From assembly GCA_012031415.1 (NCBI GenBank), contig JAAUTN010000005.1, positions 1 to 59,327 on the forward strand: 59,327 nt of DNA, in the 5' to 3' direction. Origin of the DNA: Leptolyngbyaceae cyanobacterium SM1_4_3. GTDB taxonomy: Bacteria; Cyanobacteriota; Cyanobacteriia; Elainellales; Elainellaceae. Below, piece after piece: positions 42,898-54,985 of the stretch. The translations under genes were made by a program, and so were the position numbers. Numbering within the stretch: position 1 is the first letter of the stretch; every line of letters starts with the position of its first letter. Below the pieces are notes generated by a model that worked only from the letters and a program-made list of their open reading frames with translations, searched no databases and was not told the origin of the DNA.

Positions 42898-45110
42898 ATG
42901 AATGTAAACGCTAGTGATGCCAGCCGTTCAATTCAAACTCCTCTGCAAACGGTCTGGCGCAACTCTTTTTTTGGCGCAGCACTATTCTAGCTAGCCTGGT
43001 ACTGCTTAGCCTGGAAGCAATGGCAGCGTCCGCGCAAGCTAACACAACGGGCGATCGCGCCGAATCATCCTCGCTTGAAACCAATGCTCCAACAGAAGAT
43101 GCTCTAACAGAAGATACTCTAACGGAAGCCGCTCCAGCAGAAGATACACTGGCGGAAATAGACGCGACACCTCTCACTTCACAGAAATTTCCTCAACTCC
43201 CTGTATCTGCTCAGGTTACGGTTCAGATGGGTGAAAAGCCTCAAGATTTAAAGGCGACAGGGCAATCAGCAGAACAAATCGCAGAAACGGTTGCGCGTCC
43301 TGTAGCTTTAGCAGAATCTTCTTCAGAGGCACAGAGTAGGGATAGGCAGAATACTACAGCGCTGGCGGATGAAGGGTCAGCAGATGGAGCGCTGGAATCG
43401 GAGGCGGTAAATGCACCCTCAACTTCCCTTGAACTGGGCAGGCTGCACGCTGAAGCGGTCAGCGATACAACCGTTTCAGTAGAAACGGTTCAGGTGGTGA
43501 ATGCTAGAGAAGCGATCGCTGAGGAGATACCGGAAGCCGTTACTGCTCTCCGTATTCCTGATGTAAGAGATAACACAGCAAGCGATTGGTTACAAGTTCT
43601 GGATTCGCTCCAGACGGAATTCTTTACATCGAGTAATGAAACGGCTGCGATCAGTTCATCTACAGGCTCAGCCGATGAACTGACGCAGATCTTAGCTTCC
43701 TTAGAGGCAGAATTCTTTCGCTCAAATGACGAGATTATTCTGAATTTGCCGCAGGAAGATTTTGATCTGACTGAAGAGAATCAGTATCATTCTACACCTG
43801 AAGCAGCGGATGCTGTGGCGATCGCCCCTCTCACAATCCGAGAACCCGTTGCTGTTTCACTGGCGGGGGTAGAGGCGATCGCCTGGACCGGTGCAGAATC
43901 CGAACCAGACTGGCAGCCTTTAATTTGGGACTGTGAGGCTGAAACGGACTGCTACGAACTGAGCGAGGCAGATTTGAGGTTGCTCTCAGCGGTGCCGCTG
44001 ACTCAGGGTTTGGCTGAAACGCTAGCTCAAGCGACCGATAACGAAGCAGAACCCGTTCTAGATCAGGCTGAGCCGCCAGAGGCAAATGAAGCCGATAGCG
44101 AGTTGGCTACGTCTGGCAGTGCGCTGGTTTTGGGGATGCCCTACATTCAGCTTCAGGGCGCGTATGTGCTGCAAGGGGATGAGTCTTCGGCGCGGGCAAG
44201 GGCGACGGTGCTGTATCCTGCCAGTCCGAATTTGCTGTTTGGCGCAACGGTAGATTTGGCGGGCGGTGAGGCGTTTGGCAATGCGGATGGGTTTGGGCTG
44301 GAGTTGAACGAGCTATACGCTACGTTTCTGCCACCAGGAACCTCAGGACTGCGCTTCACGGCCGGTTTGATGGATCTGACTTCCTACTTTGACCGCAATA
44401 GTTTCGCTAAGGATGTAGTGACGCACTTCTTCAATCCGGTGTTTCAAACCAATCCGGCATTGAGTGCAGCAGGGCTGTCTTCGCGAATTGGGGCACTGGC
44501 AGTCTGGAATCCGACGGATAACGTAGACGTGAGAGCCACTGTTTTTTCCTCCAATCGTGACCTGAGCGAATTTGCCCTGGATGCGTTTGCTGGAGAGGTA
44601 GGCTTTCGGGCAGGCAATCTGGTTTTGCGCGGCACTTACATTTCGGCCGAAGATCCGGGCAGCGGCGACGGGTTTGAGGAGATTTTTGGCATCGATCGCG
44701 GCAACGCATTTGGCGTGCAGGAAGGCGATCGCGAAGAAGCCTTTGGACTCAACGCCGAATACTTTATCCCTGAAATCAACCTCGGACTGTTTGCCCGCTA
44801 CGGTCACTACACCAATCGTGAAGTAGACGAAAACGCCAACACCTACAGCTTTGGCATCAATTTGCTGGACTTGTTTATGCCAGACGATCGCCTCGGACTG
44901 GCTTACGGTCGGGGCTTGTCAAATGATGAACTGCGGCGCGATCGCGACGACGAGGTGCCCGATGTTCTGGAATTGTTCTATGACGTTCGGCTTTCGCCTA
45001 ACCTGCGGGCGGGGGCGACGATTCAACAGCGCAACGAATTCTCAGAGACTGTATTTGGATTCCGGGTTCGGGCTGACCTGGATGTAACAGGACTAGGGAG
45101 GCAGTTTTAA
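42898..45110 (+). CDS. Outer-membrane beta-barrel with acidic N-terminal extension (BcsC-barrel substitute), with a frame break
   Basis: From ATG 42898 (AGGA just upstream) the frame reads MNVNASDASRSIQTPLQ into a T7 run (42966-42972) and stops at once; adding one T joins it to STILASLVLLSLEAMAASAQ, a signal peptide with an ASAQA cleavage site. Corrected length is 737 residues. About 340 residues of Glu/Ala/Thr-rich sequence follow, including the duplicated motif at 43580-43735. The last 300 are amphipathic strands of an outer-membrane barrel (YIQLQGAYVLQGDESSARAR, ARATVLYPASPNLLFGATVD, EAFGLNAEYFIPEINLGLFA, FGFRVRADLDV). There is no TPR. Its stop overlaps the start of the TPR gene (TAATG). 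It probably is the export pore of the operon; OprB-like porin is the alternative. Confidence 0.75.
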
Positions 45111-47433
45111 TGAGGCGGCGCATGGAATTTCTCATACGAGGTAGTCAGGTGTTGCAACACACGCTACTGGGGTTGATGCTACTGGGGATGTCAGCAGGAA
45201 TGCTGCTGTCTCCAATTGGTTTAGGAATTTTGGCCGTGCAGGCACAGACCGTTCCTGCCGCAGTCAGCCGGGGCTATACGCTGCTAGAGCGGGGCTGGGT
45301 GGATGATGCGATCGCGCCTTTGAGCAAGCTTTGCAGCGCTATCCCGATTCGCTGGAAGCAAGGCTGGGGTTGGCGATCGCCTACCAGCGGGCCGGTCAAG
45401 ATGAAAACGCCTGGAATACCTACCGTCAGGTGTTAGCCCAAGACCCAACCAACCGCCGCGCCCTGGAAGCAATGGGGGTATTGGGCGGCTATCGTCCAGA
45501 GTGGCAGACAGGCGGCATCGAAGCCCTAACTACGCTGCTCAACCTCGACCCAAATAACCAAAGTGCCAGGGCACAGCAGGCACTGCTGTTAGGCTACCAG
45601 GGACGCTACAGCGAATCGCTAGCAGATTATCAAATCGCGCTGGCAAACAACCCGTCCGCCGAAACGATTCTGGGTGCCGCGCAAATCAACACCTTCAGCG
45701 GCAACTACAGCCAGGGTTTGGCGCTGTTTCAGCGGTATCAGGCAGCGGGGGAAACGATTCCCAATACGGGGATTACAGCCTATGCAACCGCGCTTCAGGA
45801 GACGGGCAATCCGGCTGAGGCGGTGCGAGTGTTGGAATCGCGGCTGAGGCAGTTTAACCGCCTGGATGCAACGGCAATCCAAATTCGGGCGGCGCTGGCG
45901 ATCGCCCATCAAGCTAACCAAAACCCAGAAGCGGCACTGGCAACCCTGGAACCGCTCCGCAATGCTGAGGGCGCAACTTTGCCGCTAGCACGGGCACTCA
46001 GCACGATCGGCAGGGAATCGGGCAATGCTCAGCTTTATGAAGAGGCGATCGCCCTTTACCGTCGAGTGCTTCAGCAAACGAGCAATCCGTCTCCCGGTCT
46101 GGTGACTGAAGTAGCAGATGTGTTGAGCGAGTCGCCTACTTCTCAGGCAGAGGCACTAAGACTCTATCAACAGCTTACCTCCCAGCAGCCCAACAACCTG
46201 AGCCTGCGAGTGAAGCGATCGGTGCTAGAGCGACAGCTTGGAGAAATTTCTAGCGCCCAGCTTCAGCAAGAGCTTCAGGCGGTTTTGCAGGCGAGTGATG
46301 GGGAGATTGAGAGAGGGGCGATCGCCCAGTCTCTCATTCGCCTCGATCCGCCCGAACCGGAACTGCTGCCAATTTACCAAAATCTGCTCCAGTCCAATAT
46401 AGATGCTCCCTTCCTCAACTTCCGGGTTGCCAAATTTTGATTCAGCAAGGCGACTATACAGGGGCAAGGGAAGCTTTGACCGTCTACGGGGCGACTGCCA
46501 CTGGTGCTGAAGATTTGGCAGCGGAATTGCTTTTGGCAGACATTGAGCGGCGTGAAGGCAACCTGGAAGCCAGCGCCAGCCGCTATGAGTCACTAATTTC
46601 CCGCAATCCCGAAGATCAGATTCTCACTGCTTCCCTGCGTGGCTTGGCAGGCATTCGGCTGACGCAAAATCGTCCAGAGGAAGCGCTGGCAGTTTACGAC
46701 CAGCTTCTAGCTAGAATCCCAACGACCTGCAAACCCAATTGGTCGAGCCAGTCTTGCCTATCAGGTTGATCAAATTTCCCAGTCGGAAGCTGAAACCGTG
46801 CTGGAAAGATGGCTAGCTGCCCGTTCCGCAACAGATGCACCACCAGAATTGTTTAGCTTAGTGGGAGCCTTGCCGCCCAACCCGCAGCGGGAGCAGCTTT
46901 ATGAAACGCTGTTGACCGTTAACCCCGATGACATTGGCGTGAATCGTCGGCTGGTGCAGGTGTTGGCGTTGCGCGATCCGGAGCGGGCACAGGCAAGAGT
47001 TGATCAGGTTTTGTCGCGTAATCCCGATGACATTAACGGCTATTTCCTTCAGGGTGAATTGGCTCAAGTTCTAGGGAATCTAGAGGTCGCTAGTCAAGCC
47101 TATCGGGAGGTGCTGAATCGCCAGCCCGAAAACACCGATGCGCTGTCGGCTCTGGGCGGCATTCGGTTTCAGCAGCAGCGCTACACCGAAGCAACCATGC
47201 TCTATGCCAGGGTGCTGTCGCTCAAGCCCAACGACTGGGAAACCCGCCGCATTCTAGCAGAACTCAGCGTTGCCCAAGATCGCCCAATGGCAGCACTCCA
47301 GCAGCTTCGACGCTTGCAGCAGGAACGTCTGGTCGCAGGCAACCCTGACACAGACCTGGATGACCGAATTGAGCAAATTCAGCTAGACCTGATGCGGCGA
47401 CGAGGGTTTCAGCCTGCATGGGAGAGGTATTAG
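45110..47433 (+). CDS. Periplasmic TPR protein (BcsC-TPR/AlgK-like), broken by four missing bases
   Basis: A signal peptide region (LLGLMLLGMSAGMLLSPIGL with VQAQT cleavage) precedes about 18 tetratricopeptide repeats, such as YRQVLAQDPTNRRALEAMGV, LLNLDPNNQSARAQQALLLG, YREVLNRQPENTDALSALGG and YARVLSLKPNDWETRRILAE. The frame moves at about 45314-45318, 46432-46438, 46718-46722 and 46739-46742; adding one base at each gives one 775-residue protein ending AWERY. The four stand-alone pieces have no plausible starts of their own. There is no C-terminal barrel domain (BCSC_C). It matches the TPR half of BcsC, which in the periplasm guides the polymer to the outer membrane. Confidence 0.8.
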
Positions 47434-47709
47434 GAGGGATGAAGAATGAGGGATGAAGGATGAAGTTAGAGGGTTTTCCTGGTTTCCTGGTTTCCAAGCT
47501 CTAGTTTGGAAACTGCTCCAGAGAAGCTCTAGCTTCTCTCAAACTGAACACAAGGAAGCTGGAGCTTCCAAATTTCATTCCCAAGCTGGAGCTTGGGAAC
47601 GAGGAACACGAGGAACGAGCAAAAGGATGAGTTATGTGCATTTTTTCATCCTTCATCTCTCATCCTTCCTATGCTCCTAATCCCCTTTAAACTTGACAGG
47701 TTTTGCAGA
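47434..47709. repeat. Cluster of four perfect hairpins inside the operon
   Basis: 47491-47512 (TTTCCAA/TTGGAAA), 47521-47538 (GAGAAGCT/AGCTTCTC), 47554-47569 (GGAAGCT/AGCTTCC) and 47578-47599 (TTCCCAAGCT/AGCTTGGGAA). Three have two-nt spacers and all three share the AAGCT/AGCTT core. No gene is present. They are related to the repeats at 41069-41205. Confidence 0.8.
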
Positions 47710-49083
47710 ATGTTGCTGTATTTTTCCTGGTTCCGAATATTAGTTCTGGCTGCGCTGCGAATTTTGTCAAACGGTTTGTCTCAACTGTTGTTGGGTTTGC
47801 CGGGACGGTGGCACACCAGGGGCAGACGGCGATCGCTCCTCACGCTAATGGCGCTGCTCCTCACGCTTACAACAGGTTGCCAGAAGCCGTCTCAGGCAGA
47901 GGTGCCGATGTGTTTGCAGGATGTGGTGGGGCAGCAGTCTTCTGAAATTGTGGCGAGTACGCCGAATACGCTGTCGCTTCCCTTGCGGGCTGAGAATTTG
48001 CCGCTGCTGCAAGAAAGCTGGATTGCTTATCGTCAGCGGTTTATCCAGGAAGATGGGCGGGTGATCGATCGGGAAGATGGCGATCGCTCCACCTCTGAGG
48101 GGCAGGCTTACGCCATGCTGCGAGCGGTACTGATCAACGACCCCGGTACGTTTGTCAGAACGTTGAACTGGGCAGAGCAAAATTTGATGCGAAAGGGGGA
48201 GGATGGCGATCGCCTCGATCAGCTTTGGTCATGGAAATGGGGACGCACCACTGCTGGACGATGGACTACGATTGACTCCAACTTTGCCAGCGATGCTGAT
48301 ATCGATGCCGTCACGGCCCTGATTTTTGCCTCTCGTCGCTGGGGCTGTTCAGAATATCTGGAGCTAGCAAAAGTTAAGCTGACCGACATCTGGAATTACT
48401 CCACCGCTGAAATCTCTCCCAACAGCCGAATTCTCTTACCCGGCCCCGCCGAAGCCTTTTGGAATCAGCCCGACACGCTGATTCTTAACCCTTCTTACTT
48501 TGCCCCCTACGCTTTTCGCCTGTTTGCCCAGGTTGACCCAGAGCGCAACTGGATGAGCCTGGTGGATAGCAGCTATCAGCTTCTCGAAGCCTCATCGGAC
48601 GTGTCGGCGGTGGGGCTACCGAGCGACTGGATTTCGCTCAACCCGCAAACCGCAGAACTCAGCCCGGTCAGCGATTCTAACCTGCAAAGTCAGTATGGCT
48701 TTGATGCTTATCGGGTGTGGTGGCGGGTGGCGCTAGACGCAGCCTGGTTTCAGGAACCGCAGGCAGAGCAATATTTGCGTCAGCATTTGGCGCATTTAGA
48801 GCAGTTTTGGCAGGACGAACAGCGGATTCCTGCCCGATTCGATATGCAGGGAAGGGCGATCGCCGACTACGAAGCCACAGCCCAATACGCCACTCTTTAC
48901 GCGGCATTCGTTCTAACGCAGCCGCAGATCGCCGAGCAAATCTACCAGCAAAAGCTAGAGCCGCAATATCGGCAAGGCTTTTGGGATAACAACTCTGCTT
49001 ATTACACGCAAAATTTGGTCTGGTTTGGACTGTTGCCCCCTGCCCCTCCTTCTGCACAATTGATGCAAGCATCTGGCTCATGA
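47710..49083 (+). CDS. bcsZ: Glycoside hydrolase family 8 endoglucanase, lipoprotein (BcsZ-type)
   Basis: 457 residues from ATG 47710 (the ORF extends to 47593 through repeat DNA). A signal segment with lipobox TTGC puts Cys57 at the lipid anchor, unlike soluble BcsZ. The GH8 acid Glu130 is in TSEGQAYAMLRAVL, and the aspartates of NFASDADIDAVTAL (195-199) hold the base. Later motifs are WNQPDTLILNPSYFAPYAFR and LQSQYGFDAYRVWWRVALDA. BcsZ trims or releases nascent beta-glucan in the periplasm and is needed for good cellulose output. Its TGA overlaps the ATG of bcsB (ATGA at 49080-49083), so the two are translationally coupled. Confidence 0.92.
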   Translation: MLLYFSWFRILVLAALRILSNGLSQLLLGLPGRWHTRGRRRSLLTLMALLLTLTTGCQKPSQAEVPMCLQDVVGQQSSEIVASTPNTLSLPLRAENLPLLQESWIAYRQRFIQEDGRVIDREDGDRSTSEGQAYAMLRAVLINDPGTFVRTLNWAEQNLMRKGEDGDRLDQLWSWKWGRTTAGRWTTIDSNFASDADIDAVTALIFASRRWGCSEYLELAKVKLTDIWNYSTAEISPNSRILLPGPAEAFWNQPDTLILNPSYFAPYAFRLFAQVDPERNWMSLVDSSYQLLEASSDVSAVGLPSDWISLNPQTAELSPVSDSNLQSQYGFDAYRVWWRVALDAAWFQEPQAEQYLRQHLAHLEQFWQDEQRIPARFDMQGRAIADYEATAQYATLYAAFVLTQPQIAEQIYQQKLEPQYRQGFWDNNSAYYTQNLVWFGLLPPAPPSAQLMQASGS

Positions 49084-51476
49084 AACGCGATTTACATTCA
49101 CTCACCCCTAATCGGACTGCTTCTCAGCGGCGATCGCGCCCCACTGCTTCCCGACGCATTCGCCCCCTCTGGGCTTTTGTGGGAATGCTGCTTAGCTGCG
49201 GCTTGCTGTTGGGATGGGCGGTAATTCTGCCCACATCCGCCCAGACTGAAGCCCCCATTCCCGCTGAAGAGTCGGGTGAGCCTCAGCCTGACCTGTCTCG
49301 CTCTGAATTTGCCCTGCCCGACCCGCCCACTGCCCCGCCCACCGTCGCACCCGAAGCAGCCGGACAGTATGTGCTGGAATTTAACCGCAGCCCAATCGTA
49401 GGAAATCGCCTGCGGATGGAGGGCATCTACGATGAGCGACGGCTACGCTTCACCCGTCCGCGCAACTGGGAACCCGAATCGGTGCAAATCTCGCTGCGGT
49501 TTCGCCACTCGGCAGCGCTGTATGCGACCCGTTCTAATCTAACGGTGCTGGTCAACGGCACGAGTATCGGCAGCGTGCCGCTGAACAAACCTCAGGGCGA
49601 AATTGGCAATGTTGTGTTTAACGTACCGTCAGGGGTAATTCGAGATTACAACGAGGTGGTGCTGGCGGCGCTGCAAAACAATTCCCCGACCTGTACCCAG
49701 GACCCGTTTGACCCGTCGCTGTGGACGGAGATTCTGCCTGATTCCAAGCTGGTGTTTAACTTTCAGCCGAAGGCGATCGCCCTCGACTTTCACCGCTATC
49801 CCTACCCCGTATTTGACGATCTCAGCCTGGAGCCAAATCAGGTTGCCTACCTTCAGCCCAGCGAAACTGATGAAACCTGGCTGACCGCCACCAGCCGCCT
49901 ACACACTTCTCTGGGACGGCTAGCAGAATTTCGCCCATTGGATACTCGCATTGTTGAGACGATTGACCAGATTGCAGGGCGGGAAAGGCTGATCGTAATT
50001 GGAACTCCCGCCATTCAGCCCGCTCTCTCATCTCTGGATCTGCCGCTCTCGATCGAGAATGGTCAATTTCTGGACGCAGAACAGCAGCCTTTTCCCGGAG
50101 AGGTCGGTTTGCTGATGCTGACTACTTCACCCGATGGAGCGGCTCCTGTGCTGGTGGCAACGGGCAACGGGGCTGAAGGCGTGGCAAAAGCCGTGCAGTT
50201 CCTGGTGCAAAAAGAAGATCGGCAGATTGGCACAGGGAATCTTGTCGTCGTCAGCCAGATTGACCAGGTTGAAACGCCCGATCCGCGTGCATGGCAGGGC
50301 TACTTGCCCTTAGAGAATTCGTTTAAGCTGAGCGACCTGCGGACCTTTGACGAGCAGGCGTATGGTGACGTGACGGTGCGCGGTTCCCATTCTCCCAGTT
50401 TGGAACTAGATTTTCGGGCGCTACCCGATGACCAGTTTTCACCGGGCAACACGATGACCTTGCGCTATAGCTATGGGCCGCAGATTAACCCGCTGACTTC
50501 TCTGGTGGAAGTAGAACTGGATAACGTCGTGGTTGCTGGAAAACGCCTCACCTCCATCAGCGGTGGCAATCGGGAAACGCTGAAAGTCACCTTGCCCGAA
50601 GACCAAATCAAGCCCAATTCGCGAATTCAGGTAAATTTCCGGCTTGATCCGCGAGAACGCCGCTCTTGTAGCCGCGTCACCGACCAGCAGCTTTGGAGTA
50701 CGATTCACTCCGACACCGAATTTAAGCTAAATCGTGAACAGGTAGTGCGACTGCCTGATTTGGAGCTACTGCGGGCGGGCTATCCGTTTGCGGCACCGCA
50801 GGATTTGTCGAGTACGGCGATCGCCCTCCCCGAAAACCCTACCCAGTCTGATCTGCTGCTGCTGCTAGAAGTGAGTGAACGCCTGGGCAGACTCAGCCGC
50901 GCCGCATCGGTGAAGCTAGATGTCTACCGCGCCAGTAAGCTACCCGTTGAGCAACGAGATAGTCGCCATATTATTGCGATCGGCACCGAATCTCAGTTTC
51001 CGCTATCTGAAGCCTTCGAGCAGGGAGACGGGTTTGCTTTACGCGATTTGTTCTCCCGGCACTGGGGTCAAAAGCAGATTCAAACCTTGCCCGATCAGGA
51101 AGGACTGGTAAAGCAAATCATTTCACCCTGGAATCAAGATCGGGTGATGTTGGCGCTCAGCGCCCAAACGGAAGTGGGCTTGCAGCAGGTGCGCGACCTG
51201 CTCAGCCAGGACAATCTGTTCTTTCAGCTTGAGGGTGACACGGTGCTGATAGCCGCAAACGAACCCGATCCTTCGCCCTACGATCCCAATGCTTACTCAC
51301 TGGAGTTTTTGCAGCAGTCATCCCAGCGGCAGCTAGCATCCGCTAACCTTTCTAGCCGAATTGCGTCCGCGCTGCGCGGCAACTGGTTTATTTTGGCTCC
51401 TGGCATTGTGGCAGCGTCACTGGTGCTGTATGGGGTGATTCAACTCTACTTAAAGCGACTCACGGGGCAGGAATAA
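49080..51476 (+). CDS. bcsB: Cellulose synthase regulatory/periplasmic subunit BcsB
   Basis: 798 residues. A signal anchor (WAFVGMLLSCGLLLGWAVIL) is followed by the BcsB fold: jelly-roll carbohydrate-binding domains and flavodoxin-like domains (VQISLRFRHSAALYATRSNL, NEVVLAALQNNSPTCTQDPF, CTQDPFDPSLWTEIL is the typical Cys loop, FHRYPYPVFDDL, ERLIVIGTPAIQPA), and one C-terminal membrane helix (WFILAPGIVAASLVLYGVIQ) that packs on BcsA. It receives the glucan as it leaves BcsA. Its TAA is followed at once by the ATG of bcsA. No frame break was found. Confidence 0.93.
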   Translation: MKRDLHSLTPNRTASQRRSRPTASRRIRPLWAFVGMLLSCGLLLGWAVILPTSAQTEAPIPAEESGEPQPDLSRSEFALPDPPTAPPTVAPEAAGQYVLEFNRSPIVGNRLRMEGIYDERRLRFTRPRNWEPESVQISLRFRHSAALYATRSNLTVLVNGTSIGSVPLNKPQGEIGNVVFNVPSGVIRDYNEVVLAALQNNSPTCTQDPFDPSLWTEILPDSKLVFNFQPKAIALDFHRYPYPVFDDLSLEPNQVAYLQPSETDETWLTATSRLHTSLGRLAEFRPLDTRIVETIDQIAGRERLIVIGTPAIQPALSSLDLPLSIENGQFLDAEQQPFPGEVGLLMLTTSPDGAAPVLVATGNGAEGVAKAVQFLVQKEDRQIGTGNLVVVSQIDQVETPDPRAWQGYLPLENSFKLSDLRTFDEQAYGDVTVRGSHSPSLELDFRALPDDQFSPGNTMTLRYSYGPQINPLTSLVEVELDNVVVAGKRLTSISGGNRETLKVTLPEDQIKPNSRIQVNFRLDPRERRSCSRVTDQQLWSTIHSDTEFKLNREQVVRLPDLELLRAGYPFAAPQDLSSTAIALPENPTQSDLLLLLEVSERLGRLSRAASVKLDVYRASKLPVEQRDSRHIIAIGTESQFPLSEAFEQGDGFALRDLFSRHWGQKQIQTLPDQEGLVKQIISPWNQDRVMLALSAQTEVGLQQVRDLLSQDNLFFQLEGDTVLIAANEPDPSPYDPNAYSLEFLQQSSQRQLASANLSSRIASALRGNWFILAPGIVAASLVLYGVIQLYLKRLTGQE

Positions 51477-54127
51477 ATGGTCAGTCCTTCTAAGGTTCGG
51501 GCACAGCGACGGTGGATTCGAGCAGGAGTGCCTTCTAACTCTGAATGGCTGGCAACGCTGCTGGTCGATCGCCTGCCGCAAACGTTTGACCATGTGCTGA
51601 AGTGGCTGAATCGGCGACAACTGGTGATCCTGCTGGGGTCGCTGTTGATCATGTGTTTGCCGCTGGTAACGGTGCGTCCTAGCATCTGGCAGCAGGGTTT
51701 AATTGCCGTGCTGCTGATTTTGGTGGGACGAGCGGTACTGCAAATGGAAGATCGGCGCAGCGACAACCACAGCAGCGAGTACCTGCACCTGTTTTTGATT
51801 GTGCTAAGCGTGGTAACGACGATGCGGTATTTCTATTACCGCACGAGCTACACGCTTAACTTTGACGGCGTGGTGAATGGCTTGTTCTGTCTGCTGCTGT
51901 ATGCGGCAGAAATGTATGCGATCGCACTCTTATGCTGGCCTATTTCCAGACCTTAAAGGTTCGCGATCGCCAGCCGATCAACCTGAACACCTTTCCTAAA
52001 GACCAGTGGCTCAGCGTTGACATTTACATTCCCACTTACAACGAAGAAGTTGAAATTGTCCGTAAAACCGCACTGGGCGCTCTGGCAACCGATTACCCTT
52101 ACGACAAAAAGCACGTTTACATTCTGGATGACGGTCGGGCAGAGAAATATCGCGATCGCCGCGAACAGCTTCGTCAGATGTGCGACGAACTCGGCTGTAC
52201 CCTGCTAACGCGAGACAACAACGACCACGCCAAAGCCGGAAACATCAACACCGCCCTTCCTAAAACTGGCGGCGACCTGGTGCTGATTTTGGACTGTGAC
52301 CACATTCCGGTTCGCAGCTTTTTGCAGGAAACGGTCGGCTTCTTTATGGTTGACCCCAAAGTAGCGATGGTGCAAACGCCGCACTGGTTCTACAATCCTG
52401 ACCCGTTTGAGCGCAACCTGATGACCGAGGGACGAGTGCCCGTCGGCAACGAACTGTTCTATAAGGTGCTGCAAAAGGGCAACGATTTTTGGAATGCGGC
52501 CTTCTTTTGCGGTTCAGCAGCCGTCATCCGGCGAGAATACGTGCTGGGCATTGGCGGCATTGCGACTGAAACCGTTACTGAAGACTGTCACACCTCCCTG
52601 CGGCTGCATTCCCAGGGCTACGAAACCGTCTACTACGACAAAATCATGGTGGCGGGACTGGCACCCGAAAAGTTTTCCTCCTACGTGGGGCAGCAGGTGC
52701 GCTGGGCAAGGGGAATGGCACAAATTTTGCGAATCGAAAACCCGATGCTCAACCGCAAGCTAAATCTGCGGCTGGCGCAGCGGGTGTGCTATTTCAGCGC
52801 TACGTCACACTTCTTTTTTGGGTTTCCGCGTTTAATGTATGCGATCGCCCCCAACCTCTTCCTCCTCTTTGGCATCAACTCGGTCAAAGGCTTAGGACTG
52901 GAAACGCTGTTTTACGCTCTGCCTCACATCATTCTCTCAATGCAGGCAAACCACATTCCCTATAAGCACGTTCGCTTTTCCTTCTGGAACGAAATCTACG
53001 AGTTTGCCATGTCCTTCCAGGCAGGCATTGTCACCCTGCTAGCGCTAATCAACCCCAAACTGGGCAAATTTAACGTCACTGACAAAGGGCTAACCGTTGA
53101 AGAACGCAGCTTTGACCTGGATTCTGTGCGCTATCTGGTGATTCTGGGCGCAATTACCGCCGCATCACTGGTCGCCGTTCCGTTTTGGCTGGTGCTGAGT
53201 CCACAAGACACACAGGCGGTGCTAATCAACACCCTTTGGTGCGTGTTTAACCTGCTGCTGGTGATGGCGGCCTGCCTCGTTGCCTTTGAGCAGCCCCAAC
53301 TGCGCCGCGCCCATCGCCTGCCCCGACGCTTAGCCGCCGTGATTCACAGCGACACCCAAAGCTGGATGGCTGAAACGGTAAACGTGAGTGAAACCGGAGC
53401 GCAAGTGTTGCTGGATGTGTGGCCAAATGTGACTGATGAAATTCGGGTAGAGCTAATTGGAGACTACGGGGCGCGGGTGCTGCTGGATGCTCACATTATT
53501 CGGGCGATCGCCACCGACCGATTACAAACTTTGTTGGCTCTCGATTTTGTCAACGTCAGCCAAACCCAACTTGATGACCTCTCAGTGGTGATCTACTCAG
53601 ATGTAAAAGAATGGTATTCCCAAAAGCGGGAAGAAACAGACAACCCGCTCCAGTCGCTCAAATTCATTGCCACTAGCATCCAACGTGTCTATCGTGAGTT
53701 TCGTCCAGAGGTGGGAGTCAAAGTCCGCAAACAGGTTCGGGCTGACGCTCAGCTTTTCTGGGAGAACTGGGAAGGCACCTCTTACACCGCCAGAGTCACC
53801 GAAATGGGAACCCGAGACATTCGGCTGGAGCTAGAAGGAAACCCGCTGCACCTGGAAATGATGGAGCAAACCAACCCCCTGATTGGCTTGCTGATCAGCA
53901 GTGACACCAACGACTTCACGCCTCAAAGTCTGTTAGCCCAGGTGCAGTCCGTAGAGATACTCAGCGTCATGCCCGTCGTCACATTTCAACCACCTGGCAT
54001 TAGCCTGGAAGCTGACTCAGACTACGACATTCCACCCTTTCGGATCGCAATGGAGCTAACTTTCCCAGAATCCCTCAACCCCCAGCAGCGCAGCAAAATT
54101 CGAGATCTGCTGCGATCGCTGGAGTAG
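51477..54127 (+). CDS. bcsA: Cellulose synthase catalytic subunit BcsA with PilZ domain, with a frame break
   Basis: The N-terminal membrane helices lie in the frame from 51477, which fails after MYAIALL near 51925-51931; the next frame continues MLAYFQTLKVRDRQPINL. One missing base beside a HIP1 core restores 883 residues. The GT2 motifs are all present: ILDDGR, LILDCDHIP (DxD), FFCGSAAVIRRE, VTEDCHTSLRL (TED) and QQVRWARGMAQI (QxxRW). After the C-terminal helices a PilZ domain follows with HRLPRR and VNVSETGAQV, matching RxxxR and NxSxxG, the c-di-GMP site that opens the active site in BcsA. It polymerises UDP-glucose into beta-1,4-glucan across the inner membrane. No GGDEF or EAL gene lies in the window. 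Confidence 0.93.
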
Positions 54128-54256: not shown

Positions 54257-54985
54257 ATGCAAGCTACTTTTTACTCCCGAACCATGAGAGCGATCGCCGT
54301 CCTGCTGGGCGCTACTGGAATCTCTATGGTGGCGATCGCTCCCCTACTGGCGCAAACTCAGCCTGCTCCTGCACCCACCGCACCAGGCACAGCGGAACCA
54401 GGCGCAGACACACCGGGTACGACGGAACCCGGTACAGTGGAACCAGGCACAGCGGAACCCGGTACAACGCCGCCAACAGCACCAACCCCCGACGCTGCAA
54501 CACCTCCAACTTCCAGCAACGCCAGCCTCACCGAACTGCTGCAACAGGTATCTACTCAACAAAACCCCAGTGGTAACTCCTTCAACACCCTGGCACAGGC
54601 GGTAGCCGCCGCAGACGTAGCGCCTCTGCTCCAAAACAGCGGGCCCGTTACCATCTTTGCGCCCACTGACAGCGCCTTTGCAGAACTACCCGATGGTGCG
54701 CTTGAGTTGCTGCTGCGCCCCGAAAACCGCAACCTGCTGAGACAAGTTCTGGCTTATCACGTTGTTCCGGGTGAAGTGACTTCCGGTCAGCTTCAGACCG
54801 GAGGAGTTGACACCCTCAACGGCGGTATTGCCGTTCGTGTCACCCCCGAACGAATCGTAGTGAATGACGGCAGTGTGATTCGGGCAGACATTCAGGCAAG
54901 CAACGGAGTCGTTCACGCGGTCAACCGAGTGTTGCTGCCACCCCAAATTCGCCAGCAGCTTACAACGGCCTTAAACGCACAGTAG
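54257..54985 (+). CDS. Secreted fasciclin (FAS1) domain protein
   Basis: 242 residues. A signal peptide (AIAVLLGATGISMVAIAPLL with LLAQT cleavage) leads to a Pro/Thr/Glu-rich linker of EPGT-type five-residue repeats (about residues 45-85), then one FAS1 domain: FNTLAQAVAAADVAPLLQNS, VTIFAPTDSAFAELPDG, LLRQVLAYHVVPGEV and IQASNGVVHAVNRVLLPP. FAS1 domains mediate adhesion. It follows bcsA by 130 bp in the same direction with no visible terminator, so it may be made together with the polysaccharide. Confidence 0.94.
   Translation: MQATFYSRTMRAIAVLLGATGISMVAIAPLLAQTQPAPAPTAPGTAEPGADTPGTTEPGTVEPGTAEPGTTPPTAPTPDAATPPTSSNASLTELLQQVSTQQNPSGNSFNTLAQAVAAADVAPLLQNSGPVTIFAPTDSAFAELPDGALELLLRPENRNLLRQVLAYHVVPGEVTSGQLQTGGVDTLNGGIAVRVTPERIVVNDGSVIRADIQASNGVVHAVNRVLLPPQIRQQLTTALNAQ

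Follow-up and report, generated by a model that had tools for sequence, protein, structure and literature searches.

How does cellulose leave the cell in a cyanobacterium that carries a BcsA-BcsB synthase and no recognizable BcsC? A phylum-wide survey detected no BcsC_C domain among the cyanobacteria it covered and made no confident assignment of AlgK or AlgE (Pereira et al., 2015; PMC4594306), the Phormidesmis genome paper restates this result (PMC4971617), and according to a 2025 review the operons of cyanobacteria lack bcsB and the cellulose secretion route is poorly defined (PMC12430437). In the type III operons of alphaproteobacteria, BcsK stands in place of BcsC and the pore is not named (PMC6559018). 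The window studied here, 59,327 nucleotides, is a whole contig of the 7.79 Mb, 700-contig genome of Leptolyngbyaceae cyanobacterium SM1_4_3, and it holds a five-gene operon (42898-54127) that suggests an answer. We label its first three genes P (barrel), T (TPR protein) and Z (GH8); BcsB and BcsA-PilZ follow. We consider it probable, with good confidence, that P-T-(Z)-B-A is a c-di-GMP-controlled trans-envelope secretion system for cellulose (beta-1,4-glucan) in which P and T jointly fill the role of BcsC. The features of the locus are as follows:

42898..45110, + strand: P, outer-membrane barrel gene with an OprB match; the ATG at 42898 is the natural start if the frame changes at a T7 run
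from ATG 43020, + strand: open frame of P as read from the ORFs, without a signal peptide
42966..42972, + strand: T7 run shifting the frame within the P signal peptide
44121..45107, + strand: barrel domain of P, 16 strands in the predicted model
44376..44480, + strand: highly conserved segment of P, lying between strands 5 and 6 (LTSYFDRNSFAKD...FQTNPAL), at the position of porin loop 3
45110..47433, + strand: T, signal-peptide-bearing solenoid of TPRs in the periplasm; its reading frame is shifted in this assembly
47383..47430, + strand: conserved C-terminus of T (LDLMRRRGFQPAWERY)
47593..49083, + strand: Z, GH8 endoglucanase (BcsZ-like), probably lipid-anchored; its true start is likely an ATG inside 47671-47845
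49080..51476, + strand: BcsB
51477..54127, + strand: BcsA with a PilZ domain (53297-53581), frameshifted near 51926 in this assembly
54257..54985, + strand: fasciclin-domain protein, found next to the operon in three genomes of the genus and at no other locus seen

The initial annotation had read five same-strand genes in the order barrel-TPR-Z-B-A, the mirror image of A-B-Z-C, with three of the four junctions overlapping or abutting, and ORFs and domain matches agree with it on each point. P runs into T through TAATG (45108-45112), Z into BcsB through ATGA (49080-49083), and the TAA of BcsB abuts the ATG of BcsA (51476/51477); only T and Z are separated, by at least ~160 bp of repetitive DNA after 47433. 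Pfam and NCBIfam give a weak OprB match for P, many TPRs and no barrel for T, GH8 for Z, BcsB, and a GT2 domain with PilZ for BcsA. Such a layout is far beyond chance, since dozens of relatives repeat it. The fasciclin gene is not a core part, given that it sits beside the operon in three congeneric genomes only.

Two genes are interrupted in this assembly: T carries four single-base deletions (near 45316, 46432, 46717 and 46741), and a fifth lies in BcsA (near 51926). These five lesions, and the presence in the same genome of a second P-T and a second BcsB-BcsA at contig ends, would be expected if the operon were decaying in this organism, its T and BcsA being truly frameshifted and the work being left to the second system (contigs C304 and C445). 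We regard this as unlikely. A same-genus locus (L129/L117), 92% identical to the window over 11 kb, retains all five missing bases and shows a break of its own, in BcsB, at a site where the window reads through, as assembly error predicts; dN/dS between the two is low in all operon genes tested (0.05-0.18; T 0.08, BcsA 0.06), and decay would in any case concern one strain and not the conserved system. Because dN/dS is low and the relative keeps the missing bases, assembly error or very recent damage is the more likely origin of the deletions than old decay. Two of the five deletions (near 45316 and 51926) directly follow a GCGATCGC (HIP1) site. The T7 run at 42966-42972, because of which ATG 42898 and the signal peptide of P lie in different frames, is a separate case: its state is identical in the independent same-genus L129, and in the congener FACHB-471 (L130) the run is absent and the frame continuous. 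The frame shift at this run could be real, for example by slippage or phase variation.

The five-gene order recurs widely. A P profile scan of 84,980 species genomes returned 197 relatives, the best 80 of which were examined as loci; all 80 are cyanobacterial by name, including Leptolyngbyaceae, Nodosilinea, Calothrix, Scytonema, Moorena, Rivularia and Microcoleus. Among these best 80, T directly follows P in 78, the other two stopping at a contig edge, and the genes normally run P-T-Z-B-A or P-T-B-A; no locus seen has P and T in one gene. In Moorena, one P-T pair lies apart from B-A, in genomes that hold at least two BcsB genes. In Allocoleopsis PCC 7113 (L209), the set lies on a 93-kb plasmid, pMIC7113.02, as two divergent halves, P-T and B-A.

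P and BcsB are also present or absent together. In the window's taxonomic order (36 genomes), both are present in 30 and both absent in four, with one weak P hit (G015) scored absent, and in the remaining two, which have P and no BcsB, the assembly is incomplete (72% and 77%). Every P copy of this order with enough contig (33/33) has BcsB downstream on the same strand within 9 kb, the other 11 copies lying close to a contig end. Of 386 genomes sampled across the phylum, 17 have a full-length BcsB; P is present in 16 of these and in none of the 369 others (Fisher p=2e-27, a value that overstates the number of events, as genomes are not independent draws; the genera are, however, many). P hits in this sample are well separated, the strong ones at E < 1e-40 and the weak ones, which are short, general porins, at E > 1e-9. 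The BcsB genome without P (G377) falls outside the window's class and carries two tandem BcsB genes (L095, 8695-13436), with no BcsA, P or T recognised within ~8 kb of them.

Shared ancestry points the same way. In trees of the 50 complete loci, P, T and BcsB recover the same 20/30 bipartition (support 0.98, 0.85 and 1.0, respectively), and the tree of BcsA seems to agree with it. Seven genomes carry two systems, and in these every gene lies closest to the corresponding gene of its own system in another species, not to its paralogue. P, T and BcsB share a deep split into two paralogous systems. Their distance matrices correlate at 0.77-0.96, to which shared species history contributes.

What, then, is P? 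Its predicted structure is a 16-stranded barrel (pLDDT 84.7), whose best match among the structures listed is OprB 4gey (Z 27.1, rmsd 3.0 over 300 residues; the next scores 23.0). OprB is also the only sequence family matched: the P of the window scores 31.1 bits against PF04966 in Pfam (gathering score 22.9), 17 of 26 P barrel domains match at E 0.01 or better, and a few relatives fall below the cut-off. General cyanobacterial OprB-like porins score weakly against the P profile, and P is distinct from them. No SLH domain or Alginate_exp match was found in P with Pfam, nor any match in NCBIfam, and a PDB sequence search gave nothing relevant; one deposited P gene (Allocoleopsis PCC 7113) is annotated 'hypothetical protein'. 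An identity with BCSC_C is rejected, Pfam giving OprB only and hhalign returning a probability of 3.9% against six diverse BcsC barrels, a set of six with which a very remote kinship could be missed. The initial annotation had spoken of a BcsC split into two genes, an idea that finds no support: since P has no detectable kinship with BCSC_C, BcsC looks to have been replaced, from the OprB side, rather than split.

The N-terminal tail of P is rich in P, A, S and T and varies in length from ~30 to 650 residues, and one of its best conserved parts lies between strands 5 and 6 of the barrel (88% mean identity over 35 residues). By analogy with its placement in porins, this inter-strand segment would be a loop folding into the pore; it could narrow the pore, which counts against an export role. 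OprB relatives are known as uptake porins, which likewise counts against P as an exporter. P might in that case recover cello-oligosaccharides released by the GH8 enzyme, the chain leaving through another channel, for example a TolC-like one. OprB being both the only sequence family and the best fold match of P speaks for this scenario, and OprB is cited as serving carbohydrate uptake in Pseudomonas (PMC6528568). Still, we give the scenario little probability: P is locked to T and BcsB and not to GH8, it is missing from BcsB-less genomes, where sugar uptake would help too, and the operon holds no other pore. P as a partner of GH8 is rejected on similar grounds, as P persists where the operon has no GH8 (13 of the 50 complete loci). 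The initial annotation had considered that the barrel might be a general OprB porin without conserved linkage to bcsA; the OprB-like fold is indeed there, but the linkage to bcsB and bcsA is near perfect.

T is predicted to form a continuous helical solenoid of ~730 residues (pLDDT 88.5); this length is close to that of the part of E. coli BcsC made up of 19 TPRs, the first of which binds BcsB (PMC11379886). The single-protein predictions yield a barrel for P and a solenoid for T. Most T proteins carry a non-lipoprotein signal peptide (AxA-type cleavage motif in 61/65), the repeats are ordinary TPRs with no Sel1 match in Pfam, and a structure search with T returned general TPR and helical-repeat proteins only. 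Against the NCBIfam PgaA model, T reaches 45.3 bits, across the repeats only, for a cut-off of 366.65, and P has no NCBIfam match; a PgaA (PNAG exporter) identity is therefore not retained. Some T proteins (e.g. L130, 11050-13347, 91.9 bits for a cut-off of 70) exceed the cut-off of the model for SctY, a type III secretion chaperone (NF052415); we reject this as a general TPR match, and it is a possible misannotation trap.

Conservation in T peaks at residues 76-100, near the first repeats, and in the last 16 residues. Of the 52 P-linked T proteins in the alignment, 51 carry the ending RGFQPxWERY. Four T proteins whose loci show no P, and which come from three genera, lack it; at one further locus (L233) the ending is kept, with no P beside T and a P elsewhere in the genome. 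Over the few lineages compared, this distribution of a sequence motif fits a possible T-to-P docking role.

The P-less loci (L229, 8248-18538; L230, L231 and L232) read T-Z-B-A or T-B-A, with T lacking RGFQPxWERY. Ahead of T, L229-L231 have a gene for a small two-TM coiled-coil membrane protein of ~250 aa. T and BcsAB may thus also work with another partner, which counts against the proposed role of P. BcsB-like hits were also seen in four small (~3 Mb) cyanobacterial genomes (L112-L115). In one of them (L112, 8950-13288), a BcsB-like gene of divergent sequence overlaps a gene for a GT2 protein whose N-terminus is an MshEN domain, of a type that binds c-di-GMP, with no P or T; this is possibly another c-di-GMP-controlled synthase pair.

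The synthase core is that of a Bcs system, comprising a BcsB domain (Pfam, E 3e-99) and a GT2 cellulose synthase with PilZ and QxxRW; in BcsA, the DDG, DCD, TED and QQVRW motifs and the PilZ NVSETG motif are intact. Z has a GH8 domain (Pfam, E 8.7e-42) with EGQAYAM, SDADID and FDAYR, and scores 178 bits against the NCBIfam BcsZ model, below its cut-off of 299. The same architecture could in principle export a different or modified polymer and not cellulose, and the BcsA fragment, lacking its frameshifted N-terminus, does score 651 bits, below the CelA cut-off of 699; with the catalytic and PilZ motifs present and the GH8 protein matching BcsZ, we find such a polymer quite improbable. The membrane-tethered glucanase of the initial annotation stands in part. 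A lipobox is usual in the GH8 proteins of these operons (30/48 by a strict pattern, 37/48 by a loose one) and, although that of the window (LTTGC) is slightly off consensus, a lipid anchor is probable; GH8 is, however, a common and not a constant member of the operon, and genomes without an operon GH8 often carry a GH8 gene elsewhere.

No BCSC_C domain was found in the organism's own genome and no full-length BCSC_C hit in the 386-genome phylum sample. The full trans-envelope Bcs set first proposed for this one locus, in which barrel and TPRs are encoded apart, is conserved across cyanobacteria. From gene content, linkage, co-occurrence, shared ancestry, predicted folds and the lack of BcsC, we propose the following path. 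BcsA would make the chain and extrude it across the inner membrane to BcsB, as follows from the known biochemistry of this pair. T, a free periplasmic solenoid of BcsC length, would dock on BcsB via its conserved first repeats and guide the chain, and its other end would hand the chain to P, a 16-stranded OprB-type outer-membrane pore. The lipid-anchored GH8, where present, would trim stalled or misrouted chains. We infer that the polymer passes through P, that T links BcsB with P by docking at its two ends and that the polymer is cellulose, the roles of T as guide and P as exit following from their position, co-inheritance, the size match with BcsC and the lack of any BcsC. The exporter would thus combine a porin related to OprB with a solenoid encoded on its own, P not being a BcsC barrel. 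We further lean, with more reserve, towards the view that recruitment of an OprB-family porin together with a separate BcsC-length solenoid is the standard exit of cyanobacterial BcsB-type systems, a non-homologous replacement of BcsC that predates the split into two paralogues.

We found no description of the P-T pair in the open-licence literature, and none there of OprB or other porins joined with BcsB in export. P-T-(Z)-B-A is a concrete candidate for the cellulose exit that occurs in cultured strains and can be knocked out, and it can serve as a marker for annotating cyanobacterial cellulose export. If the proposal is true, a sugar-porin fold can yield a polysaccharide exporter, and the one-chain BcsC is one solution among others.

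The gene set, conserved in many filamentous cyanobacteria, is a variant of synthase-dependent cellulose secretion in which BcsC is replaced, and it shares parts with several known systems. OprB carbohydrate porins have the fold of P and a weak sequence match to it, but P is locked to a cellulose synthase operon and has its own conserved inter-strand segment and a long, variable N-terminal tail. In alginate export, AlgE and AlgK are likewise a separate outer-membrane barrel and TPR scaffold, and the likeness to this pair put forward by the initial annotation holds for the layout only; in contrast, T is much longer, with ordinary TPRs and mostly a non-lipoprotein signal peptide, P has 16 strands and no Alginate_exp domain, and the synthase is BcsA/BcsB. 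The type III bcs operons of alphaproteobacteria place a TPR protein, BcsK, beside BcsA, BcsB and BcsZ without BcsC (PMC6559018); going by the description of BcsK in that work, no barrel is named there, whereas here P adjoins T. The cyanobacterial XcsA-XcsB(HlyD)-TolC model also pairs a PilZ-bearing cellulose synthase with an endoglucanase, but where that model has HlyD and TolC, our system has BcsB, T and P, with every gene in a single operon (PMC12430437 for the model). A proteobacterial Bcs system with BcsC, such as E. coli bcsABZC, has BcsA-PilZ, BcsB, GH8, a TPR solenoid of similar length and a 16-stranded barrel (PMC11379886); here, by contrast, barrel and TPRs are separate proteins, the barrel is of the OprB kind and not BCSC_C, the GH8 protein mostly carries a lipobox, and the gene order is mirrored.
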